This document shows, one piece after another, positions 12,841-55,063 of a stretch of DNA of 64,000 bases. The stretch is taken from the NCBI RefSeq assembly GCF_014641635.1, contig NZ_BMIC01000006.1, positions 1 to 64,000 on the forward strand. Direction: 5' to 3'. The position numbers and the translations under genes are program-made. Below the pieces are notes generated by a model. That model was not told the origin of the DNA, did not search any database, and saw only the letters and a list, made by a program, of their open reading frames with translations. How positions within the stretch are numbered: position 1 is the first letter of the stretch; each line of letters starts with the position of its first letter. Source of the DNA: Aquaticitalea lipolytica (GTDB lineage Bacteria > Bacteroidota > Bacteroidia > Flavobacteriales > Flavobacteriaceae).

Positions 12841-12941
12841 TATTGCCTTTATAAAAAAAATAGTCGACCTTCGTTTAACGTTTGATATAAAATATTAAAA
12901 CAATTTCATATCACTATAGTTGTAAGTAATTTAACCTAAAA

Positions 12942-13481
12942 ATGGATATAATCAACAAAACCAAAATTATTGTCCTGATAATATTTTCTCTTTCATTTCA
13001 ATCGACATTAAGTCAAACAGATAAGGAAATGTATGAAATAGTTTCAGTTGTGGTGAATTATAATAATCCCGAATTGCCAATTGTTGACACTTTAAACCCA
13101 ATTTCAATAAGGAGTAACTTCTTAATGAAACAAATCACAGAAAAAGTCACTCTAAACAGGAAACAGAAAAAGATTTTGAAAGGAAAGGTCGACAATAGTG
13201 GTGGATTAATTATTGACAAGACGAAACTTCCCAACTTTAAATTTTATCTGCATAGTGAAATCTCAAATATTTTTCAAAATTTGAGTGCTGATTCTGAAGC
13301 GATAAATCTATTAAATGAAAAAAAACCGTTTTATGTTTTTAGTAAACCAGTAATATTTCTTGAAATTAATATAGCATTTATTAATATGGACTTAATAGGT
13401 GGATTTGGAGCAATTTATATTCTTGAAAAAAAGAATGACAAGTGGATAATTAAAGATAGTATTGGGAAATGGTATTCATAA
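12942..13481 (+). CDS. Secreted protein of unknown function (cargo of element A)
   Basis: The 179-residue protein has a signal peptide (hydrophobic IIVLIIFSLSFQSTLSQ at about 9-25) and a mature part I do not recognise: a charged central stretch (KVTLNRKQKKILKGKVDNSGG) and a C-terminal strand pattern GGFGAIYILEKKNDKWIIKDS, reminiscent of secreted proteins that end in KWxIxD. It is probably periplasmic. It is the only gene on the plus strand between two minus-strand housekeeping genes and lies wholly inside the cassette-like element. Confidence 0.65.
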   Translation: MDIINKTKIIVLIIFSLSFQSTLSQTDKEMYEIVSVVVNYNNPELPIVDTLNPISIRSNFLMKQITEKVTLNRKQKKILKGKVDNSGGLIIDKTKLPNFKFYLHSEISNIFQNLSADSEAINLLNEKKPFYVFSKPVIFLEINIAFINMDLIGGFGAIYILEKKNDKWIIKDSIGKWYS

Positions 13482-13490
13482 TAAACTACG

Positions 13491-13623
13491 TACAACATTG
13501 GCTAGAGTTCATTGCGGCGGAATTCCTAAAAGTTTATATGGGCAACTTTACTATCTTTAAGTTTGGTGGAAAAGTCCTACGGACTATTTCCGCAACGAAA
13601 CCATAGCCCTACCGTTAAACGAA
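13491..13623 (+). repeat. Right-end structured repeat of element A
   Basis: It starts TACAACATTGGCTA and ends ACCATAGCCCTACCGTTAAACGAA in pieces. The outer parts are imperfect inverted repeats (GGCTAGAGTTCATTGCGG against the complement of CCGCAACGAAACCATAGCC). A central hairpin has GGAAAAGTCC (13568-13577), loop TAC and GGACTATTTCC (13581-13591). It matches the right ends of elements B and C. Confidence 0.65.
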
Positions 13624-32128: not shown

Positions 32129-32144
32129 TACGTAGAACTACGTA
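32129..32144. repeat. Palindrome TACGTAGAACTACGTA, copy 1
   Basis: The 16-bp near-palindrome sits 27 bp before the TTCGTTTAAC of element B; the same sequence at 50536-50551 has the same 27-bp spacing to element C. Confidence 0.6.
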
Positions 32145-32344
32145 TTGATTATTTCAATTTTTAAAACTAACTTCGTTTAACTTCTGATATAAATCATTAA
32201 AACAGATTCATATCATGTTTGTTTTACACAAGTTTCGGAAACAAGTAAAATCTATAGCTTCACTCATTGAATCAATTTATTTACTAATTCTAACTCATAT
32301 AATTAGATTTGATTTTCTATTTTACTTGAAAATATTAGTTCAAA

Positions 32345-32875
32345 ATGAATTTATCTAAAAATCTCTACACATACTTTCTGATTTTATCGTTTTTTATGTC
32401 TTGCTCGACAAATAAGAAAATGATTCATAAAGAATCTAAGATTATAGGTACATATAACGACTATTTCGGAGATAGAATTGAATTAAATGCTGATTCAACT
32501 TTTAAATTTAATTACGCATTTGATCTTATTTCAAGTTGGTCAATCGGAAAATGGAATGTAAAAAGTGATACTATTTATTTTGAGACTAATCTTGTGATGG
32601 ATACTTTAACTATAAGGGATTTAAACAACAAAATAATTCGAGATTCATTAGTATTATCTGATGATACTAAAATCGATAGAATTGAATTAATTGATAATAT
32701 CTCATCAATACTTTCAAGTGGTGGACAAAATAGAAAAAAAGTCCCAGAAAAACTGTTCTGGAAAAATAACAAGCTTTACCGATTTGATAGTATCGGAAGA
32801 TTAGATTTAAGGAGAGTTGATGGTTTTTGGACTAATAAAAAATATAACACATACTTTGTTAAATCAGAAATGTAA
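32345..32875 (+). CDS. Lipoprotein of unknown function (cargo of element B)
   Basis: The 176-residue protein has a lipoprotein signal with lipobox SFFMSC (Cys20). The mature part has a compact beta-rich pattern (GTYNDYFGDRIELNADSTFKF, WSIGKWNVKSDTIYF) like lipocalin- or SH3-type surface lipoproteins, and a LFWKNNKLYRFDSIGRLD turn. I do not recognise a family. It is the first unit of cassette-like element B and is read rightwards from the TTCGTTTAAC end. Confidence 0.65.
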   Translation: MNLSKNLYTYFLILSFFMSCSTNKKMIHKESKIIGTYNDYFGDRIELNADSTFKFNYAFDLISSWSIGKWNVKSDTIYFETNLVMDTLTIRDLNNKIIRDSLVLSDDTKIDRIELIDNISSILSSGGQNRKKVPEKLFWKNNKLYRFDSIGRLDLRRVDGFWTNKKYNTYFVKSEM

Positions 32876-32884
32876 AAACCAGTG

Positions 32885-33094
32885 TACAACACCATGTATA
32901 ATTAATTACTACTGTTAGTTAAGCAGAAGAAAAAAAATTATTTTTAAAACTAAATAAAATAATTGAAAAATCACGACCGCTCAGCTGTCGCGCTTTTTCT
33001 CCAGCGGAATTTTCGCTGTAAACGGCTCATCCAAACGCAAAAGCGCTTGGCTGAATTCCGCAACAAATCATACACAAACTCATTGTAAGCAATT
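32885..33094 (+). repeat. Internal structured repeat of element B
   Basis: It starts TACAACACCATGTATAA and ends CATACACAAACTCATTGTAAGCAATT directly before the ATG of the second gene. GCGGAATT (33004-33011) pairs with AATTCCGC (33054-33061), and GCGCTTTT pairs with AAAAGCGC within it. The end is a diverged version of CATACACAAACACGTTAAACGAA at the right end. Confidence 0.6.
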
Positions 33095-33772
33095 ATGAGA
33101 AACATCTGGAACATAATTTTAATTTCATTATTCGCAGTTGGATTAGCTAATGCTCAAGACAATCTGCAGACTGTTGAATACAACGAATTGTTGAAATTGA
33201 AAGTTGATGAAAACCGATTTACCTTTGGTTGGCTAGACAGTGTTTTCAGCGGAATTCCTTGTTTCAGAGATTATACAAAATCGGATATTCAAACTGAACT
33301 TGTTGACCCAAAAACGGACTCGATTATATATACTTCATCAGAACCAAAAAGAAACGGATTGATAATCGTTCCAAACAGCATAGAAGTTGACAAAAAAAGT
33401 AAGAAATTTCAAATTAGCGGAAAAATAACTGGTGGTTGGGAAAGTGTAATTCCAACTGAATTTAAAATTTACATTGGACATCGGAACGACACGATTTCTA
33501 ACACTACTCTTTCACCAAACTTGCATGGAGACATATATTTTAATGGAAGAAAAATGGACAGTACAATTGTCATCGATACAGTTCCTGCCTTCTATATGAG
33601 TGATTTACAAAGATTTGAAGCTTATCGAGGAAAGGAATATTTAGAAAACTCAAAATACAAGGAAATGCTCTTTGAAATTAATGGAATAATAGACGAAAAG
33701 AGCATTTTAGTTTTTGGACTTTCGTCACGCTATGCCGAGATATTTGAAATCGGAAAATTATTAACTGAATAA
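33095..33772 (+). CDS. Secreted protein of unknown function (second cargo of element B)
   Basis: The 225-residue product has a signal peptide (MRNIWNIILISLFAVGLANA) and an unrecognised mature region with repeated beta-strand patterns (KFQISGKITGGWESVIPTEFKIYIGHRND, FYMSDLQRFEAYRG). A start within the internal structured repeat puts the ATG 4 nt after CATTGTAAGCAATT. It is the second unit in element B and is probably periplasmic or surface-located. Confidence 0.65.
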   Translation: MRNIWNIILISLFAVGLANAQDNLQTVEYNELLKLKVDENRFTFGWLDSVFSGIPCFRDYTKSDIQTELVDPKTDSIIYTSSEPKRNGLIIVPNSIEVDKKSKKFQISGKITGGWESVIPTEFKIYIGHRNDTISNTTLSPNLHGDIYFNGRKMDSTIVIDTVPAFYMSDLQRFEAYRGKEYLENSKYKEMLFEINGIIDEKSILVFGLSSRYAEIFEIGKLLTE

Positions 33773-33782
33773 AATAACTACT

Positions 33783-33916
33783 TACAACAATGGCTATAAG
33801 CAATCGCTTGTTTTCGCCTACTTCTGAAAAATCCTCGCGGATTTTCAGTTAAGTGTGTACTTGCAAAGTTAAGTGCTAACCAACCCAACTAACCATACAC
33901 AAACACGTTAAACGAA
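33783..33916 (+). repeat. Right-end structured repeat of element B
   Basis: It starts TACAACAATGGCTATAAG and ends CCATACACAAACACGTTAAACGAA in pieces. The hairpin CTGAAAAATCC (33824-33834), loop TCGC, GGATTTTCAG (33839-33848) is the counterpart of the GGAAAATCC/GGATTTTCC hairpin in element C. Confidence 0.65.
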
Positions 33917-48782: not shown

Positions 48783-49604
48783 ATGAAAGAACTTAGTACA
48801 CGAGCCATTTCTGGAGCTTTATACATTTCACTACTTATATTATGTATTTATTGGCAATACGCATTAGTAGTATTGTTTTTAGTTTTTGGGCTTATTTGCA
48901 TGGCAGAGTTTAAAAAGCTAATCGACCTAAAAGGCAACATATCGTACATCATTTTTTTAGTTATGTATCTTGGGTTTAGCATTTGGTGCCTCACTCCTGC
49001 TGTAAATACAGGATTTAGCGAAGCCATTAAAATATTACAAGTTATTACCATATTTGTACAATTGTTTTTAATAAAAGACTTGTTTTCAGAAAAAACAATT
49101 CCGTTGTTTAGCTCAAAACGTTATATACTTACAACATTCTACCTATCAAGCTCATTTGTGTTTTTAATACTTATCGCAAACAACGATAATACATTTACAC
49201 CTATGTTATTATTAGGTGCATTTATATTGGTTTGGATAAACGATACAGGAGCTTATATAGTAGGTAAAAACTTCGGAAAGCAAAAACTCTTCCCAAGTGT
49301 ATCGCCAAAAAAGACTGTTGAAGGTTTTTTAGGTGGTTTATTTTTTGCCTGTGTTGCTAGTTATTTTATTGCCTTATTTACCGAGACTTTAGACTCTACA
49401 CATTGGCTTGCACTAGCCATTGTAGTATCTGTTTTTGGTACAATTGGCGATTTAATCGAATCTAAATTTAAGCGACAAGCTGGCGTAAAAGATAGTGGTG
49501 TAATTATGCCAGGACACGGAGGTTTGTTAGATAGGTTAGATAGTATTATTTTTACAGCACCATTTTTCTATTTATTTTTAAGACTGTTTCCGTATGTTTC
49601 ATAA
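48783..49604 (+). CDS. cdsA: Phosphatidate cytidylyltransferase CdsA
   Basis: CdsA makes CDP-diacylglycerol for phospholipid synthesis. The 273-residue integral membrane protein has seven to eight hydrophobic spans and the signature ESKFKRQAGVKDSG followed by MPGHGGLLDRLDS. It overlaps the start of psd by 11 bp; both act in phosphatidylethanolamine synthesis. Confidence 0.92.
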   Translation: MKELSTRAISGALYISLLILCIYWQYALVVLFLVFGLICMAEFKKLIDLKGNISYIIFLVMYLGFSIWCLTPAVNTGFSEAIKILQVITIFVQLFLIKDLFSEKTIPLFSSKRYILTTFYLSSSFVFLILIANNDNTFTPMLLLGAFILVWINDTGAYIVGKNFGKQKLFPSVSPKKTVEGFLGGLFFACVASYFIALFTETLDSTHWLALAIVVSVFGTIGDLIESKFKRQAGVKDSGVIMPGHGGLLDRLDSIIFTAPFFYLFLRLFPYVS

Positions 49605-50244
49605 AGAAGGACAAAAAATTATTTTTATAACCTTGGTTATAGTAGTTGCAATTATTTTCGCAATAGATTATACAGTAACACTACCTTGGTTACGTATTGC
49701 ATTAATGTTTTTAGCATTAGCATTCTTCGGATTGATACTTCAGTTTTTTAGAAACCCAAAACGTATTGGCAAACTTAATGATAACCATGTGTTGTCGCCA
49801 GTTGATGGAAAGGTTGTTGTTATTGAAGAAGTACAGGAAAACGAATATTTTAAAGACAAACGTATACAAGTATCTGTATTTATGTCGCCAATAAATGTAC
49901 ACGTTACACGCTATCCAATTGGCGGAAAAGTTGCTTTTAGCAAATATCATCCTGGTAAGTTTTTAGTGGCTTGGCACCCAAAAGCTAGTGAGGAGAATGA
50001 GCGTACAACAGTTGTGGTAGAAAACAATAGTTTTGGTAAAGTATTATACCGACAAATTGCTGGAGCATTAGCAAAACGTATAGTAAATTATGCCAAAGCA
50101 GATGATGTTGTAGCACAAGGAAGCGATTCTGGATTTATAAAATTTGGTTCGAGAGTAGATGTTTTTTTACCTTTAGATGCCAAAGTTAAAGTAACACTAA
50201 ACCAAAAAGTAAAAGGTGGTGTTAGTGTAATTGCCGAAAAGTAA
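49594..50244 (+). CDS. psd: Phosphatidylserine decarboxylase-family protein
   Basis: The 216-residue protein is the short, archaetidyl-type Psd. A TM segment lies near residues 10-25, and VFMSPINVHVTRYPIGGKV and IAGALAKRIVNYAKADDVVAQG give the family core. Autocleavage would occur at Gly185-Ser186 in KFGSRVDVFLP, making the pyruvoyl group. It decarboxylates phosphatidylserine to phosphatidylethanolamine. It overlaps cdsA by 11 bp and is followed by the ACBP gene 4 bp later. Confidence 0.92.
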   Translation: MFHKEGQKIIFITLVIVVAIIFAIDYTVTLPWLRIALMFLALAFFGLILQFFRNPKRIGKLNDNHVLSPVDGKVVVIEEVQENEYFKDKRIQVSVFMSPINVHVTRYPIGGKVAFSKYHPGKFLVAWHPKASEENERTTVVVENNSFGKVLYRQIAGALAKRIVNYAKADDVVAQGSDSGFIKFGSRVDVFLPLDAKVKVTLNQKVKGGVSVIAEK

Positions 50245-50248
50245 AATA

Positions 50249-50515
50249 ATGACAAAAGAAGAGTTAAACATAGAATTTGAAGATGCGGTAGAACGCATTA
50301 ACAACTTTAAAGAACCTTTTCCTGCCGACTTTTTATTACGCTTATATGCTTATTATAAAAAAGCGACCAATAACTACGAACGACCAAGTAGTAGTAAACC
50401 TATAATTAACGCTTTTAAAACCAATGCCCTTTTTCAGGTTAAAGATGTGAGCCAAGACGAAGCCAAACGCATTTATATAGATTTGGTAAACAACTACTTT
50501 TTATACCGAAAATAA
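50249..50515 (+). CDS. Acyl-CoA-binding protein (ACBP)
   Basis: The 88-residue protein matches the ACBP four-helix fold: FEDAVERINNFKEPFPADFLLRLYAYYKKATNNY, GKTN-like turn replaced by SSSKPIINAFKTNALFQ, and IYIDLVNNYFLYR. It binds long-chain acyl-CoA, and sits at the end of the cdsA-psd phospholipid operon. The start is the ATG at 50249; an in-frame TTG at 50231 overlaps psd and is rejected. Confidence 0.85.
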   Translation: MTKEELNIEFEDAVERINNFKEPFPADFLLRLYAYYKKATNNYERPSSSKPIINAFKTNALFQVKDVSQDEAKRIYIDLVNNYFLYRK

Positions 50516-50535
50516 ACCCTCTTTTTTACCAAAAT

Positions 50536-50551
50536 TACGTAGAACTACGTA
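50536..50551. repeat. Palindrome TACGTAGAACTACGTA, copy 2
   Basis: The 16-bp near-palindrome is identical to 32129-32144 and lies 27 bp before the TTCGTTTAAC of element C, the same spacing as in element B. Confidence 0.6.
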
Positions 50552-50667
50552 TTTCTTTTTACGTTTTAAAACGCTAACTTCGTTTAACTATCGATATAGA
50601 TAATTAAAACCAATCCATATCGTCGCATTACACACAATTACTCCGGAAAACCAGAACTAACATTATA

Positions 50668-50982
50668 ATGACAAACTCGGAAAAGAAAAAAATCGCTTTA
50701 ATCATATTTCATGTGATTGTTCTTTTATTCTTGTTTGTTTCAATAACTTTATTACTCGACGACATTTTTTCACAGAACGAAAACCCAAATGATTATATAG
50801 ATTCTTTTTATGTAAGTACACCTAGAATAATTGCTCCATTTGCTGTTTTACTTGGTTCAATAAGTTGGTTGATAATTTTAATTAAATGGATTCGAAATAG
50901 TCGTCTAGAATTTTATATGAAATCAATTTTTCTAACCAAAACAATTATAATTATTGGATTGATTCTATTAATGACAATTTAG
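50668..50982 (+). CDS. Small three-span membrane protein (cargo of element C)
   Basis: The 104-residue protein has three hydrophobic segments (IALIIFHVIVLLFLFVSITLLL, IIAPFAVLLGSISWLIILI, KTIIIIGLILLMTI) and an acidic loop (DDIFSQNENPND). No family is recognised. It is the only gene inside cassette-like element C. Confidence 0.6.
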   Translation: MTNSEKKKIALIIFHVIVLLFLFVSITLLLDDIFSQNENPNDYIDSFYVSTPRIIAPFAVLLGSISWLIILIKWIRNSRLEFYMKSIFLTKTIIIIGLILLMTI

Positions 50983-51473
50983 TCTCATTAGATTTATTTT
51001 ACACAAATTAGAATTTAAATCGCATACGGAATCTAACTCAGACGCGGATTTTTCTTTTGCGCAAATTATATTGGGTTTGCTAAATTAAATACTTATATGT
51101 TTTCTGCTTCAAAGCGTTTTGCAAACACTTTTTGCCATTTAAGCTGTTAAAAGCAAAACTATTGTTTAGCTTTTATTATGTTAATTGTTCTCCTCATTAC
51201 CGCAAAAACTTTATGTGCATACTCTATTCTGTCGCAACAGTGTGTAACAACGTGTATAGTCAATTGCTTGGTCTGTGATTACTCGGAAAATCCTACGGAT
51301 TTTCCTACTGGTTCGTTTCTTTTGTTAACTTAGTTCTTGCCAACGCAACAAACCATATACAACAACGTTAAACGAAATCTCAAATTTTATATCATTAATC
51401 ACTTTTCACTTTAAAAGTTGCTACAACATTTATAAAAAGGTATTTTAGCTGCACAAACACCAAATCTGTTATT
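50983..51473. other. Gene-free stretch after element C gene
   Basis: The 490 bp hold the end of element C, listed separately, and the leader of the M28 gene. Between 50983 and 51243 there is no credible ORF; there are short inverted repeats such as GCAAA/TTTGC around 51120 and AAAAGCAAAACTA/TTTAGCTTTT around 51150-51175. Confidence 0.5.
51244..51376 (+). repeat. Right-end structured repeat of element C
   Basis: It starts near GTAACAACGTGTATAG and ends AACAAACCATATACAACAACGTTAAACGAA in pieces. The central hairpin is perfect: GGAAAATCC (51285-51293), loop TAC, GGATTTTCC (51297-51305). Outer sequences form an imperfect inverted repeat. Confidence 0.65.
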
Positions 51474-52631
51474 ATGCAACGTTTTATATTATTTGTTATC
51501 GCTTTAGTATGCTTTAATACTAGTAATGCACAAACCTACAACACTTATTATGGTGACATTGTTGCCAATGTATCGTCTAGCAACGTATTAAACGACCTCA
51601 CAACTTTTGAGAATTTTGGCATAAAAGAGTTAGGCACTACAGCTTTAACTAACACTCAAAACTGGATTACTGCTCGTTACCAAAGTTTAGGCTATACAGA
51701 TGTAGTGTTGCAACCTTTTAGCTTTAATGGCAATACAACCAATAATATAATTGTTACCAAAACAGGTACAGTGTATCCTAACACCTATTTAATTATCGAT
51801 GCGCATTACGATACTATTAATGGTCCTGGTACTAACGATAATGGTACAGGTACAGTATTATTGTTAGAGTTAGCACGACTTTTAAAAGATGTAGATACCG
51901 AATACTCTATAAAATTTATTCATTTTAGTGGTGAAGAAGATGGTTTGGTTGGTAGTACGTATTATGTAAATAATACTGTTATTCCTCAAAATTTAGATAT
52001 AAAACTTGTGTTTAATATCGACGAAGTTGGTGGTGTTAATGGCATGACTAATAATACTATTGTTTGCGAAAGAGACCAAAGTAGTCCAGCTTCTAACAAT
52101 GCGGCTTCGGCTGCTCAAACTACCATTTTGGCTAACTGCATGGAGTTATACTCTAACCTAAATACCGAAATATCGTTTGCTTACGCTTCAGATTATGTGC
52201 CTTTTGAAAATAATGGTGAAATTATCACTGGGTTGTTCGAAAAAAATGAATCGCCAGTAAACCATACCATCAACGATAATTTAGCGAATATGGATGCTAC
52301 CTATGCTTATGAAGTGGTAAAAGGTGCTCTTGGTGCTGCTTTAGAGTTTTCTGTGGCTTACGACTCTTCTTTAAGTATTGTTGACGAGCAGTTTGTTTCT
52401 GTGTCTGTGTTTCCTAATCCTGCAAATAAATACATTACTGTTGCTTTTAAAAACCCCATACAAACTCCTGTGGATTTTAAACTTATTGATGTACAAGGCA
52501 AAGAAGTTATATCTAAAACCTTAACCGAACAATCAGAGAAGATTGCTGTAGATTCGTTAAGTAGAGCTAACTATGTTGCTGTTTTTAAAATTGAAAATCA
52601 ACGATTAATTAAGAAAGTGATTTTAAATTAA
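51474..52631 (+). CDS. T9SS-sorted M28 family peptidase
   Basis: The 385-residue secreted peptidase has a signal peptide (FILFVIALVCFNTSNA) and the M28 two-zinc site: IDAHYDTINGPGTNDNGTGTVLL, HFSGEEDGLVGS and VFNIDEVGG. The C-terminal ~75 residues are a T9SS type A sorting domain (VSVFPNPANKYITVAF to LIKKVILN). It is an aminopeptidase-type enzyme exported through the T9SS. It overlaps the convergent DDAH-like gene by 4 bp. Confidence 0.88.
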   Translation: MQRFILFVIALVCFNTSNAQTYNTYYGDIVANVSSSNVLNDLTTFENFGIKELGTTALTNTQNWITARYQSLGYTDVVLQPFSFNGNTTNNIIVTKTGTVYPNTYLIIDAHYDTINGPGTNDNGTGTVLLLELARLLKDVDTEYSIKFIHFSGEEDGLVGSTYYVNNTVIPQNLDIKLVFNIDEVGGVNGMTNNTIVCERDQSSPASNNAASAAQTTILANCMELYSNLNTEISFAYASDYVPFENNGEIITGLFEKNESPVNHTINDNLANMDATYAYEVVKGALGAALEFSVAYDSSLSIVDEQFVSVSVFPNPANKYITVAFKNPIQTPVDFKLIDVQGKEVISKTLTEQSEKIAVDSLSRANYVAVFKIENQRLIKKVILN

Positions 52632-53548
52632 TCACGTATTAAAGGCATAGTTGAGCAACGTAATAATCCTTCTTGCTTAGAAATCTCAGCATAAGGTACT
52701 TCTTCAACTGTAAAACCTTGTTTACGTAACCAGGTATTTAAACGCGTAAAATTACGTTCGGAAATCACAACATCATCAGCTATTGAAAAGATATTACTGT
52801 TCATGTGATACATTTCTTCACGTGTAATGTGAAATAGATTTTCTTTTCCGAAAAGGTTTACTAAATACATATAATCGCTTTCTTCTCTAAAACCGCTTTT
52901 ATAAATAATCCCTTTGTCTTTTCCGACAGGTTGAAAACAGCAGTCTAAATGCAAAGCATTATCTCTTGGTTCTATTTTAGATTTTACGAGGTCAAACTCC
53001 TTTACAATCTTATCAGGAAACAAATCTTTAATAAAATTTACACCTTCTGTATTTGTACGAGCAGTAATATAATTTTTATAATCGCTGCCTTTATAGGTAC
53101 CAATAAAAATGTGGTTGTTCCAAAGCATTACGTCTCCACCTTCAATATGAACCTCTTCTGGTGGACGAATTACTTTTTTTGGATCTATCTGGTCTATGAC
53201 ATATTGAATAGCGTCTAACTCCTCATCACGTTCTGGCAGAATATTGGCTTTTATAAAAATATCGTCAATTACAAAAGCGATATCTCTGGCAAATATTTGG
53301 TTATAGTCTTCAATAAGATCAGGACGATACACCTTAACATTATACTTTTCGAACACTTTTGCTACTGCATCCATCTCTTTTACCATATCTGCTTCAACAG
53401 GATAGGTACCAGCTTTAATGTGTTCTAACGATTTTGGGTCGTAAGCTTCCTCTACTGTTGGTGTTGGACCATTGCTAATTGCAGTTCCTAAAACCACAGC
53501 TCTTAATCGAGAGGTTTCGTTTTTTATGTTAAGTTTTAAATAGTCCAT
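52628..53548 (-). CDS. DDAH/arginine deiminase-like hydrolase
   Basis: The 306-residue amidinotransferase-fold enzyme has a conserved RDIAFVID, VHIEGGDVMLWNNH, ALHLDCCFQPVG and Cys298 in LLRCSTMPL near the C-terminus. It is a relative of CtlX (40.2 kb) but only distantly alike, and probably converts a guanidino substrate such as dimethylarginine or arginine. It follows gltA on the minus strand with a terminator in between (53562-53591). Confidence 0.78.
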   Translation of the reverse strand: MDYLKLNIKNETSRLRAVVLGTAISNGPTPTVEEAYDPKSLEHIKAGTYPVEADMVKEMDAVAKVFEKYNVKVYRPDLIEDYNQIFARDIAFVIDDIFIKANILPERDEELDAIQYVIDQIDPKKVIRPPEEVHIEGGDVMLWNNHIFIGTYKGSDYKNYITARTNTEGVNFIKDLFPDKIVKEFDLVKSKIEPRDNALHLDCCFQPVGKDKGIIYKSGFREESDYMYLVNLFGKENLFHITREEMYHMNSNIFSIADDVVISERNFTRLNTWLRKQGFTVEEVPYAEISKQEGLLRCSTMPLIRD

Positions 53549-53561
53549 AGGTTACAAATAT

Positions 53562-53591
53562 AAAAAAAGCCTCATTATAAAAATGAAGCTT
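53562..53591 (-). terminator. Rho-independent terminator of gltA
   Basis: AAGCCTCATT (53567-53576) pairs with AATGAAGCTT (53582-53591), with one mismatch; the minus strand then has a run of seven T. It lies after the gltA stop at 53611. Confidence 0.7.
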
Positions 53592-53610
53592 ATATCACTA
53601 TCGTTATGAT

Positions 53611-54897
53611 TTAGCGTTTATCAATAGATACAAAAGGCCTTAAAGTTTCTCCAATATATATTTGACGTGGACGACCAATTGGCTCGTTATTTAAACGCAT
53701 TTCTCTCCACTGTGCAATCCAACCTGGTAAACGACCTAATGCAAACATTACTGTAAACATATCAGTTGGTATTCCCATACCTCTGTAAATAATACCAGAA
53801 TAGAAATCGACATTTGGATATAATTTACGGTCAACAAAGTATGGATCTTGTAATGCTTCTTTTTCTAATCCTTTAGCAATATCTAAAATTGGATCTTCAA
53901 TACCTAAATTATCAAGTACTTCGTCTGCTGCCTTTTTAATGATTTTAGCACGAGGATCGAAGTTTTTATATACTCTGTGTCCAAAGCCCATTAAACGGAA
54001 AGGATCTTCTTTATCTTTAGCTTTAGCCATATACTTTGCAGTATCTCCACCATCTTCCTTAATAGCTTCCAACATTTCTAATACTGCTTGATTTGCTCCA
54101 CCATGAAGTGGTCCCCAAAGTGCAGAAATACCTGTAGAAAGTGATGCAAATAATCCAACATGTGACGAACCAGCTATTCTTACAGTAGATGTAGAACAGT
54201 TTTGTTCGTGGTCTGCATGAAGAATTAATAATTTGTCTAATGCATTTATTAATATTGGATTTAATATATATTCTTCATTAGGCTGCTTAAACATCATTTT
54301 TAAGATGTTTTCTACATAACCTAAATTTTTATCTCCATAATCTAATGGTAAACCTTGTTTTTTACGAAGTGTCCAAGCTACTAATACAGGAAACTTACCT
54401 AATATTTTTACAATAGCTTTGTACATATCTTCTTCAGAATTTACATTTACTGAAGATGGGTTAAAAGCTGTTAATGCACTTGTTAATGATGCAATAACAC
54501 CCATTGGATGCGCAGATTTAGGAAACGCATCAACTATTTTACGTACATCCTCATCTACAACAGATTGCGCTTTAATATCTGTATGAAATTTTTCTAATTC
54601 TTCTTTTGTTGGTAATTCACCAAAAATTAAAAGGAATGCTACCTCAAGGAAATCTGCTTTTTCAGCAAGTTCTTCAATTGAATAACCTCTGTATCTTAAT
54701 ATTCCTTTTTCACCATCTAGAAAAGTAATAGCACTCTCGCAAGACCCTGTATTTTTATAACCTGGATCGATAGTAATTACACTATCTGTAGTACTTCTTA
54801 AGTTCTTAATATCGATGGCAACTTCGTTCTCTGTTCCAACAATTAATGGGAACTCATATTTTTTTCCTTCTATTTCTAAAGTAGCAGTTTTTGACAT
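53611..54897 (-). CDS. gltA: Citrate synthase
   Basis: The 428-residue enzyme starts at the ATG 54897; upstream in-frame codons to 54942 are rejected. Catalytic motifs are LILHADHEQNCSTST, LWGPLHGGANQAV with His and GFGHRVYKNFDPRA. It condenses oxaloacetate and acetyl-CoA in the TCA cycle. A TAATTTCG -7-like element lies at 54944-54951, and eno lies upstream with its own terminator. Confidence 0.94.
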   Translation of the reverse strand: MSKTATLEIEGKKYEFPLIVGTENEVAIDIKNLRSTTDSVITIDPGYKNTGSCESAITFLDGEKGILRYRGYSIEELAEKADFLEVAFLLIFGELPTKEELEKFHTDIKAQSVVDEDVRKIVDAFPKSAHPMGVIASLTSALTAFNPSSVNVNSEEDMYKAIVKILGKFPVLVAWTLRKKQGLPLDYGDKNLGYVENILKMMFKQPNEEYILNPILINALDKLLILHADHEQNCSTSTVRIAGSSHVGLFASLSTGISALWGPLHGGANQAVLEMLEAIKEDGGDTAKYMAKAKDKEDPFRLMGFGHRVYKNFDPRAKIIKKAADEVLDNLGIEDPILDIAKGLEKEALQDPYFVDRKLYPNVDFYSGIIYRGMGIPTDMFTVMFALGRLPGWIAQWREMRLNNEPIGRPRQIYIGETLRPFVSIDKR

Positions 54898-55024
54898 ATT
54901 GTATTGTAAATTTTTGTTTAAAATGGTTGAGATTATCAACAACGCGAAATTACGAAATATATCACGATTAATAAAGCATGTTTACAAAGGTTTTAACAAT
55001 TCTATTATATATAAAATTGATAGT

Positions 55025-55063
55025 AAAAAAGAAAGCGATTATTAATGGTTTAATAATCGCTTT
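55025..55063 (-). terminator. Rho-independent terminator of eno
   Basis: AAAGCGATTATTA and TAATAATCGCTTT form a perfect 13-bp stem; the minus strand then has T residues. It lies between the eno stop and the gltA start. Confidence 0.75.

Follow-up and report, generated by a model that had tools for sequence, protein, structure and literature searches.

Canonical integron integrases carry an IntI-specific additional domain (PMC9668308, citing Messier and Roy 2001), and clusters of attC sites without an integrase are known as CALINs (PMC9024848, PMC8618304). As summarized in PMC12444791, Loot et al. 2024 have also described attG sites, which are consensus genomic sites that are neither attC nor attI. 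In Bacteroidetes, a 2022 survey counted one complete integron, that of Salinibacter ruber (PMC9024848). Bacteroidetes are considered almost free of integrons; here, we describe an integron-like system that is common in Flavobacteriaceae. It is a gene-capture system of marine flavobacteria, with a recombinase that is without the region by which known integron integrases are recognized and, by the criterion of PMC9668308, it is therefore integron-like in function and not a canonical integron. Our literature search, the scope of which left out most subscription journals and all preprints, returned no paper that joins Flavobacteriaceae or Bacteroidetes with such arrays or such a recombinase.

The DNA analyzed is a 64,000-nucleotide stretch of Aquaticitalea lipolytica (contig NZ_BMIC01000006.1, positions 1 to 64,000), hereafter the window. 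The block from 32172 to 33916, which we call element B, consists of two gene-plus-repeat units with outer ends TTCGTTTAAC and GTTAAACGAA, and very probably represents two integron-like cassettes in a solo attC-like hairpin site, or pad, captured most likely by a tyrosine recombinase of ~390 aa acting in trans. The initial annotation had described this block as a two-unit array, and we observed just that: two open reading frames on the + strand, a repeat after each, and the ends as they had been described. The internal repeat that it reported is also real and far beyond chance; we place it at 32881-33084 (32885-33094 in that annotation). The features of element B, and of the two elements in the window that have the same ends, are as follows.

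12870..13623, + strand: element A, a pad with one cassette (ORF 12942-13481) and the same ends; the unit start GTAAGTA pairs with its own end at 6/7 positions
32129..32144: palindrome TACGTAGAACTACGTA upstream of the pad, a possible operator
32145..32175, + strand: putative promoter-like TTG-N20-TAACTTCG, running into the pad
32172..32223, + strand: left part of the pad, with R'' TTCGTTTAAC (32172-32181, the left end of element B), L'' GATATAAATC, loop, L' GATTCATATC and GTT, as placed by a covariance-model R1 match, fold and alignment
32224..33084, + strand: cassette unit 1; start TTACACA against own end AGTGTAC, 5/7 complementary
32345..32875, + strand: gene 1, 176 aa, lipoprotein-like N-terminus
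32881..33084, + strand: attC-like site of unit 1 (the internal repeat), R'' AGTGTACAAC ... L' CATACAC ... ATT
33085..33909, + strand: cassette unit 2; start GTAAGCA against own end TACTTAC, 6/7
33095..33772, + strand: gene 2, 225 aa, signal-peptide-like N-terminus
33779..33909, + strand: attC-like site of unit 2, terminating in CATACACAAACACGTT
33907..33916: right end of element B, GTTAAACGAA
33910..33916, + strand: right part of the pad, AAACGAA, which pairs with TTCGTTT at 32172-32178
50579..51376, + strand: element C, a pad with one cassette (ORF 50668-50982) and the same ends

Neither protein of element B (176 aa and 225 aa) had a match in Pfam. In the window, the sequence CGTTAAACGA was counted 4 times (0.04 expected). 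The right arm of the internal repeat, CATACACAAACTCATT, differs by two mismatches from CATACACAAACACGTT at 33894-33909, and the ATG of gene 2 comes next, at 33095. With two attC-like sites and no integrase nearby, element B is CALIN-like, a CALIN being defined by at least two attC sites, and is, like a CALIN, a small attC-like cluster far from any integrase. Unlike a CALIN, it sits in a conserved family of hairpin pads, which number about 22 in the genome and of which some are empty in relatives. The suggestion that gene-plus-repeat units in tandem form an array of cassettes was supported by the right-hand repeat: a blastn search of the genome with the segment 33770-33920 gave 39 matches (about 26 at E<0.01), including relatives in tandem arrays on contigs C1, C3 and C2. 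Unit number, which had been proposed as a variable to examine, differs between sites, being 1 in elements A and C, 2 in element B, 3 at C1:678979-681676, and more elsewhere on C1 and C3.

Each unit starts with GTT plus 7 nt, a heptamer complementary to the one that precedes AAC where the same unit ends. We observed this symmetry in >100 units from many genomes. The start/end match averaged 5.00 of 8 for 13 units of the own genome, vs 2.81 after shuffling (the largest of 2000 shuffles was 4.46), 5.53 of 8 vs 2.76 for 30 units in 12 loci of the family, and 5.47 of 8 vs 2.63, with a mode of 7, for 89 units in 80 named loci; the observed mean was attained by none of 2000 shuffles. Base 8, after the R box, was always A at the unit start and was C at the unit end in 80/89 (units with at least 6/7 matches), and this constant A opposite C could mark strand or orientation. 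The inner stems covary: L''/L' triples are complementary in 115/135 sites (shuffled maximum, 59), with GTG/CAC, GTA/TAC and GGC/GCC among the covarying pairs. This L-triple test was used in place of a covariance fold of whole attC sites, for which only 3 sites were short enough. A search of Rfam gave no match, and the median unit length is 793 bp.

As judged from these comparisons, the unit symmetry is that of integron cassettes, in which the attC R boxes pair again in the circular cassette. The system resembles integrons in that a tyrosine recombinase adjoins an attI-like site, in its co-oriented one-gene cassettes, each terminating in a palindromic site, and its GTT/AAC cores, in the R'/R'' pairing that would be restored upon circularization, and in L-box covariation. 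It differs from them in R boxes of 10 bp (AAC/GTT plus 7 variable nt), longer than RYYYAAC/GTTRRRY and not respecting RRRY (for example, GTTGGCA), and in the constant A opposite C that follows the 7 nt. Also, the integrase gene is co-oriented with the array and directly upstream of it, and the recombinase has an extra N-terminal part of ~95 aa and is without the IntI-specific additional region. The unit symmetry bears on one further claim, that the internal copy in element B had changed its core to ATTGTAAG as if inactivated. This did not hold up, since unit starts pair with their own unit ends: unit 2 begins with the GTAAGCA that follows the internal ATT, as listed above. Nor is the internal core AAACGAA in decayed form, since in every array (G/A)TT is followed by unit-specific bases.

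Pads are hairpins of ~57-61 bp that are also present without cassettes elsewhere, and are ordered R''(TTCGTTT-AAC)-L''-loop-L'-R'(GTT-AAACGAA). The left end of element B resembles an attC hairpin, and from this an empty site TTCGTTTAAC-N-GTTAAACGAA was to be expected; when 60 genomes were searched for this pattern, exactly one match was obtained, a 61-bp hairpin in G007. In G001, a genome of the same genus, an empty hairpin lies directly after the orthologous terC-like gene, which is the position of element B here; at this locus only the left flank is orthologous, and the right flank differs. At the element C locus, the orthologous site in G001 is an empty pad and both flanks align, window positions 49386-50637 and 51368-55033 matching adjacent G001 stretches that meet at the pad. 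A covariance model gave 22 pad matches in the own genome; for G001, G007 and G018 the number was about 12-15 per genome. Seven pad hairpins are empty, with empty ones found in G001, G007 and G018, and a cassette follows most of the others. Among pads shared by the own genome and G001, some carry different cassettes (L108/L115, L045/L122) and others have cassettes here and none in G001 (L040/L120, L043/L123). The empty and filled states, together with the differing orthologous pads, therefore indicate that pads stay and cassettes come and go.

In 21/30 occupied pads, an attC-like arm downstream carries the complement of the first unit's start (8% in a cross-control), and at 9/30 no start/end match was seen. 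This count supersedes an earlier test with a loose left-arm pattern (33 pads, mean 2.91/7 vs 1.94, 5 good), in which false arms inside genes were picked up. The outer ends of element B belong to a resident hairpin site, whose two arms they form and which was split by insertion; they are not the bounds of a single mobile element. Compared with attG insertions as they are summarized in PMC12444791, the cassettes are similar in lying at genomic sites other than attI, whereas the pads are conserved attC-like hairpins with R and L boxes and conserved flanks, and so fall outside the attG sites of that summary. It should be noted that three G001 pads (L118, L119 and L121) have in common a ~22-bp insertion in the hairpin loop that is AAATTTTCCTGAACTTGTTTTAG-like.

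The ~390-aa tyrosine recombinase is present as one copy per genome in 38/149 family genomes at E<1e-35, with the C5 fragment of the own genome as query; its catalytic set (R, K, H, R, H and Y) is invariant. An attI-like motif, ATATAACNAGTT (the site reading ATATAACNA-GTT; region ATATAACCAGTT), was found within 400 bp downstream of the integrase in 48/79 named loci and upstream in none; in relatives, the distance from integrase to motif is tens to about 200 bp, and a co-oriented array then follows. The motif did not occur in 1.40 Mb of background. The attC-like sites around the integrase are likewise one-sided, with 110 downstream on the same strand, 0 on the opposite strand and 2 upstream. An exact TAnnTTTG was present upstream of 18/63 attI motifs, without TTG at 17-22 nt, and is weak as a Pc promoter. 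For 26/80 integrases (L179-L258) the contig ends <1 kb downstream, on the array side, and for none does it end upstream; it is probable that short-read assemblies break at the arrays and that these are undercounted.

An intact integrase was not found in the own genome. Contig C5 encodes a 112-residue C-terminal fragment of the tyrosine recombinase, followed by ATATAACCA-GTTG and attC-like sites, and an array on C3 opens with the attI motif as found on C5. The C5 integrase lacks its N-terminal part (L072:6520-8356), and an FAD-monooxygenase-like ORF lies directly upstream of the fragment. The first unit after this attI motif is ~3.2 kb long (L072:8394-11590) and carries several genes that run against the array; it starts with GTACGCA, which pairs with its own end at 6/7 positions, so that it may be a multi-gene cassette. 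In G001 an intact integrase gene is located at a contig edge, the contig ending in the attI motif.

The nearest models to the recombinase are XerA/XerC-like, with IntI close behind. Xer/XerA proteins (PDB 5hxy, 4a8e) gave the best sequence and profile matches to its core-binding and catalytic domains; unlike Xer/XerA, the recombinase has an extra N-terminal domain and is linked to cassette arrays. Within the extra ~95 aa, residues 1-72 are predicted to form a beta-beta-alpha-beta-beta-alpha-beta domain. Profile alignment to VchIntIA (2a3v) matched chain positions 6-181 and 245-317 and skipped 182-244, the IntI-specific additional region, in place of which the recombinase family has ~20 residues.

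Taken with the pads and the unit ends, these results lead us to propose that the two cassettes of element B were inserted one after the other into the solo attC-like hairpin downstream of the terC-like gene. Insertion would have been between (G/A)TT and AAACGAA, and for this reason the pad arms would flank the array. Each cassette comprises one gene plus an attC-like site, and its first 7 nt would pair with its own R'' once circular. Cassettes would excise as circles and fold as single-stranded hairpins, and the ~390-aa integrase would insert them at attI or, in trans, at scattered pads. Since the integrase is broken in the own genome, the cassettes there may now be stranded. Weighing against the proposal are this broken integrase, the single orthologous flank at the element B locus of G001, the 5/7 pairing of unit 1 and the 9/30 pads without a start/end match. 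It is improbable that the cassettes are instead those of a canonical integron or CALIN and owe their movement to a standard IntI present elsewhere in the lineage, even though the cassette and attC-like anatomy matches and the nearest NCBI model is entitled "site-specific tyrosine recombinase/integron integrase". The recombinase adjacent to the arrays scored 186-213 bits, below the TIGR02249 cut-off of 265, and the R boxes are 10 bp long with variable sequence. At E<1e-50, TIGR02249 matched 0/299 family genomes, a search that is weak alone because the controls gave no match either; the skipped IntI-specific region in the VchIntIA alignment is the better evidence.

The inverted ends at A, B, C and other sites, and the dispersal of the pads themselves in about 22 copies in the own genome, could also be expected if element B were one transposon-like element, with TTCGTTTAAC/GTTAAACGAA as terminal inverted repeats, that a transposase moves whole. 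We consider this very unlikely. In relatives, the sites without cassettes still have both arms and the hairpin and are not a bare target, which largely refutes a whole-element transposon; also, cassette content changes at orthologous pads, and the units have paired ends of their own. Homologous recombination or duplication between dispersed intergenic repeats, with no site-specific recombinase involved, would draw on repeats that are indeed numerous and on the tandem duplication of some pads with ~100 bp of flank (L044, L043). It is hardly credible as an account of element B, however, as it predicts neither the pairing of unit starts with their own ends, nor the exact (G/A)TT-AAACGAA junctions, nor arrays that are found only downstream of the integrase.

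Whether the cassette system as a whole constitutes a separate and widespread integron lineage of Bacteroidota, with an XerA/XerC-like recombinase that has its own N-terminal domain and no IntI region, and with dispersed, promoter-bearing solo attC pads as extra landing and expression sites, is to our minds an evenly balanced question. The integron-like system described here was easy to miss, because its recombinase bears no IntI signature and assemblies break at its arrays. It is a natural setting in which to test whether cassette recombination requires the IntI-specific region, and its pads provide a clear empty/occupied read-out of cassette landing places.

The two units of element B are independent of each other in other genomes. 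The initial annotation had proposed looking for either gene alone, and would have been contradicted by two genes that always occur together; we found unit 2 without unit 1, and homologues of unit 1 as cassettes without unit 2. Gene 2 was found in 3/397 family genomes. One of these, G168, belongs to another genus and has a gene 2 homologue (88% aa) as a single cassette between two attC-like sites, with a different neighboring gene; gene 1 was not found there. Unit 2 is present in its entirety in G168 (84% nt, match to 33059-33909), where it starts GTT-GTAAGCA and pairs with its own end at 7/7 positions. Gene 1 homologues are present in 7/397 family genomes besides the own genome, and are in cassette form in G344 and G080, the two that were checked; the G080 copy is about 4.8 kb from the integrase.

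Finally, we examined the sequence just upstream of pads. TTG is located 19-20 nt before the 8-mer TAACTTCG in 30/41 pads (26 at exactly 20), compared with 14% in background. This TTG-N20-TAACTTCG arrangement resembles Bacteroidota promoters, and captured genes may therefore be transcribed from the pad. The palindrome TACGTAGAACTACGTA has 21 copies in the genome at no more than 1 mismatch (control, 0), of which 10 are just upstream of pads, and it was found at 13/41 pads in four genomes. Two local duplications were seen among pads, at L044:1330-2160 and L043:3690-4330, where the pad and ~100 bp of upstream flank form a tandem pair and each of the two copies has a cassette of its own. The palindrome also occurs at 50536-50551 of the window, and three copies are clustered at C5:99446-99983.
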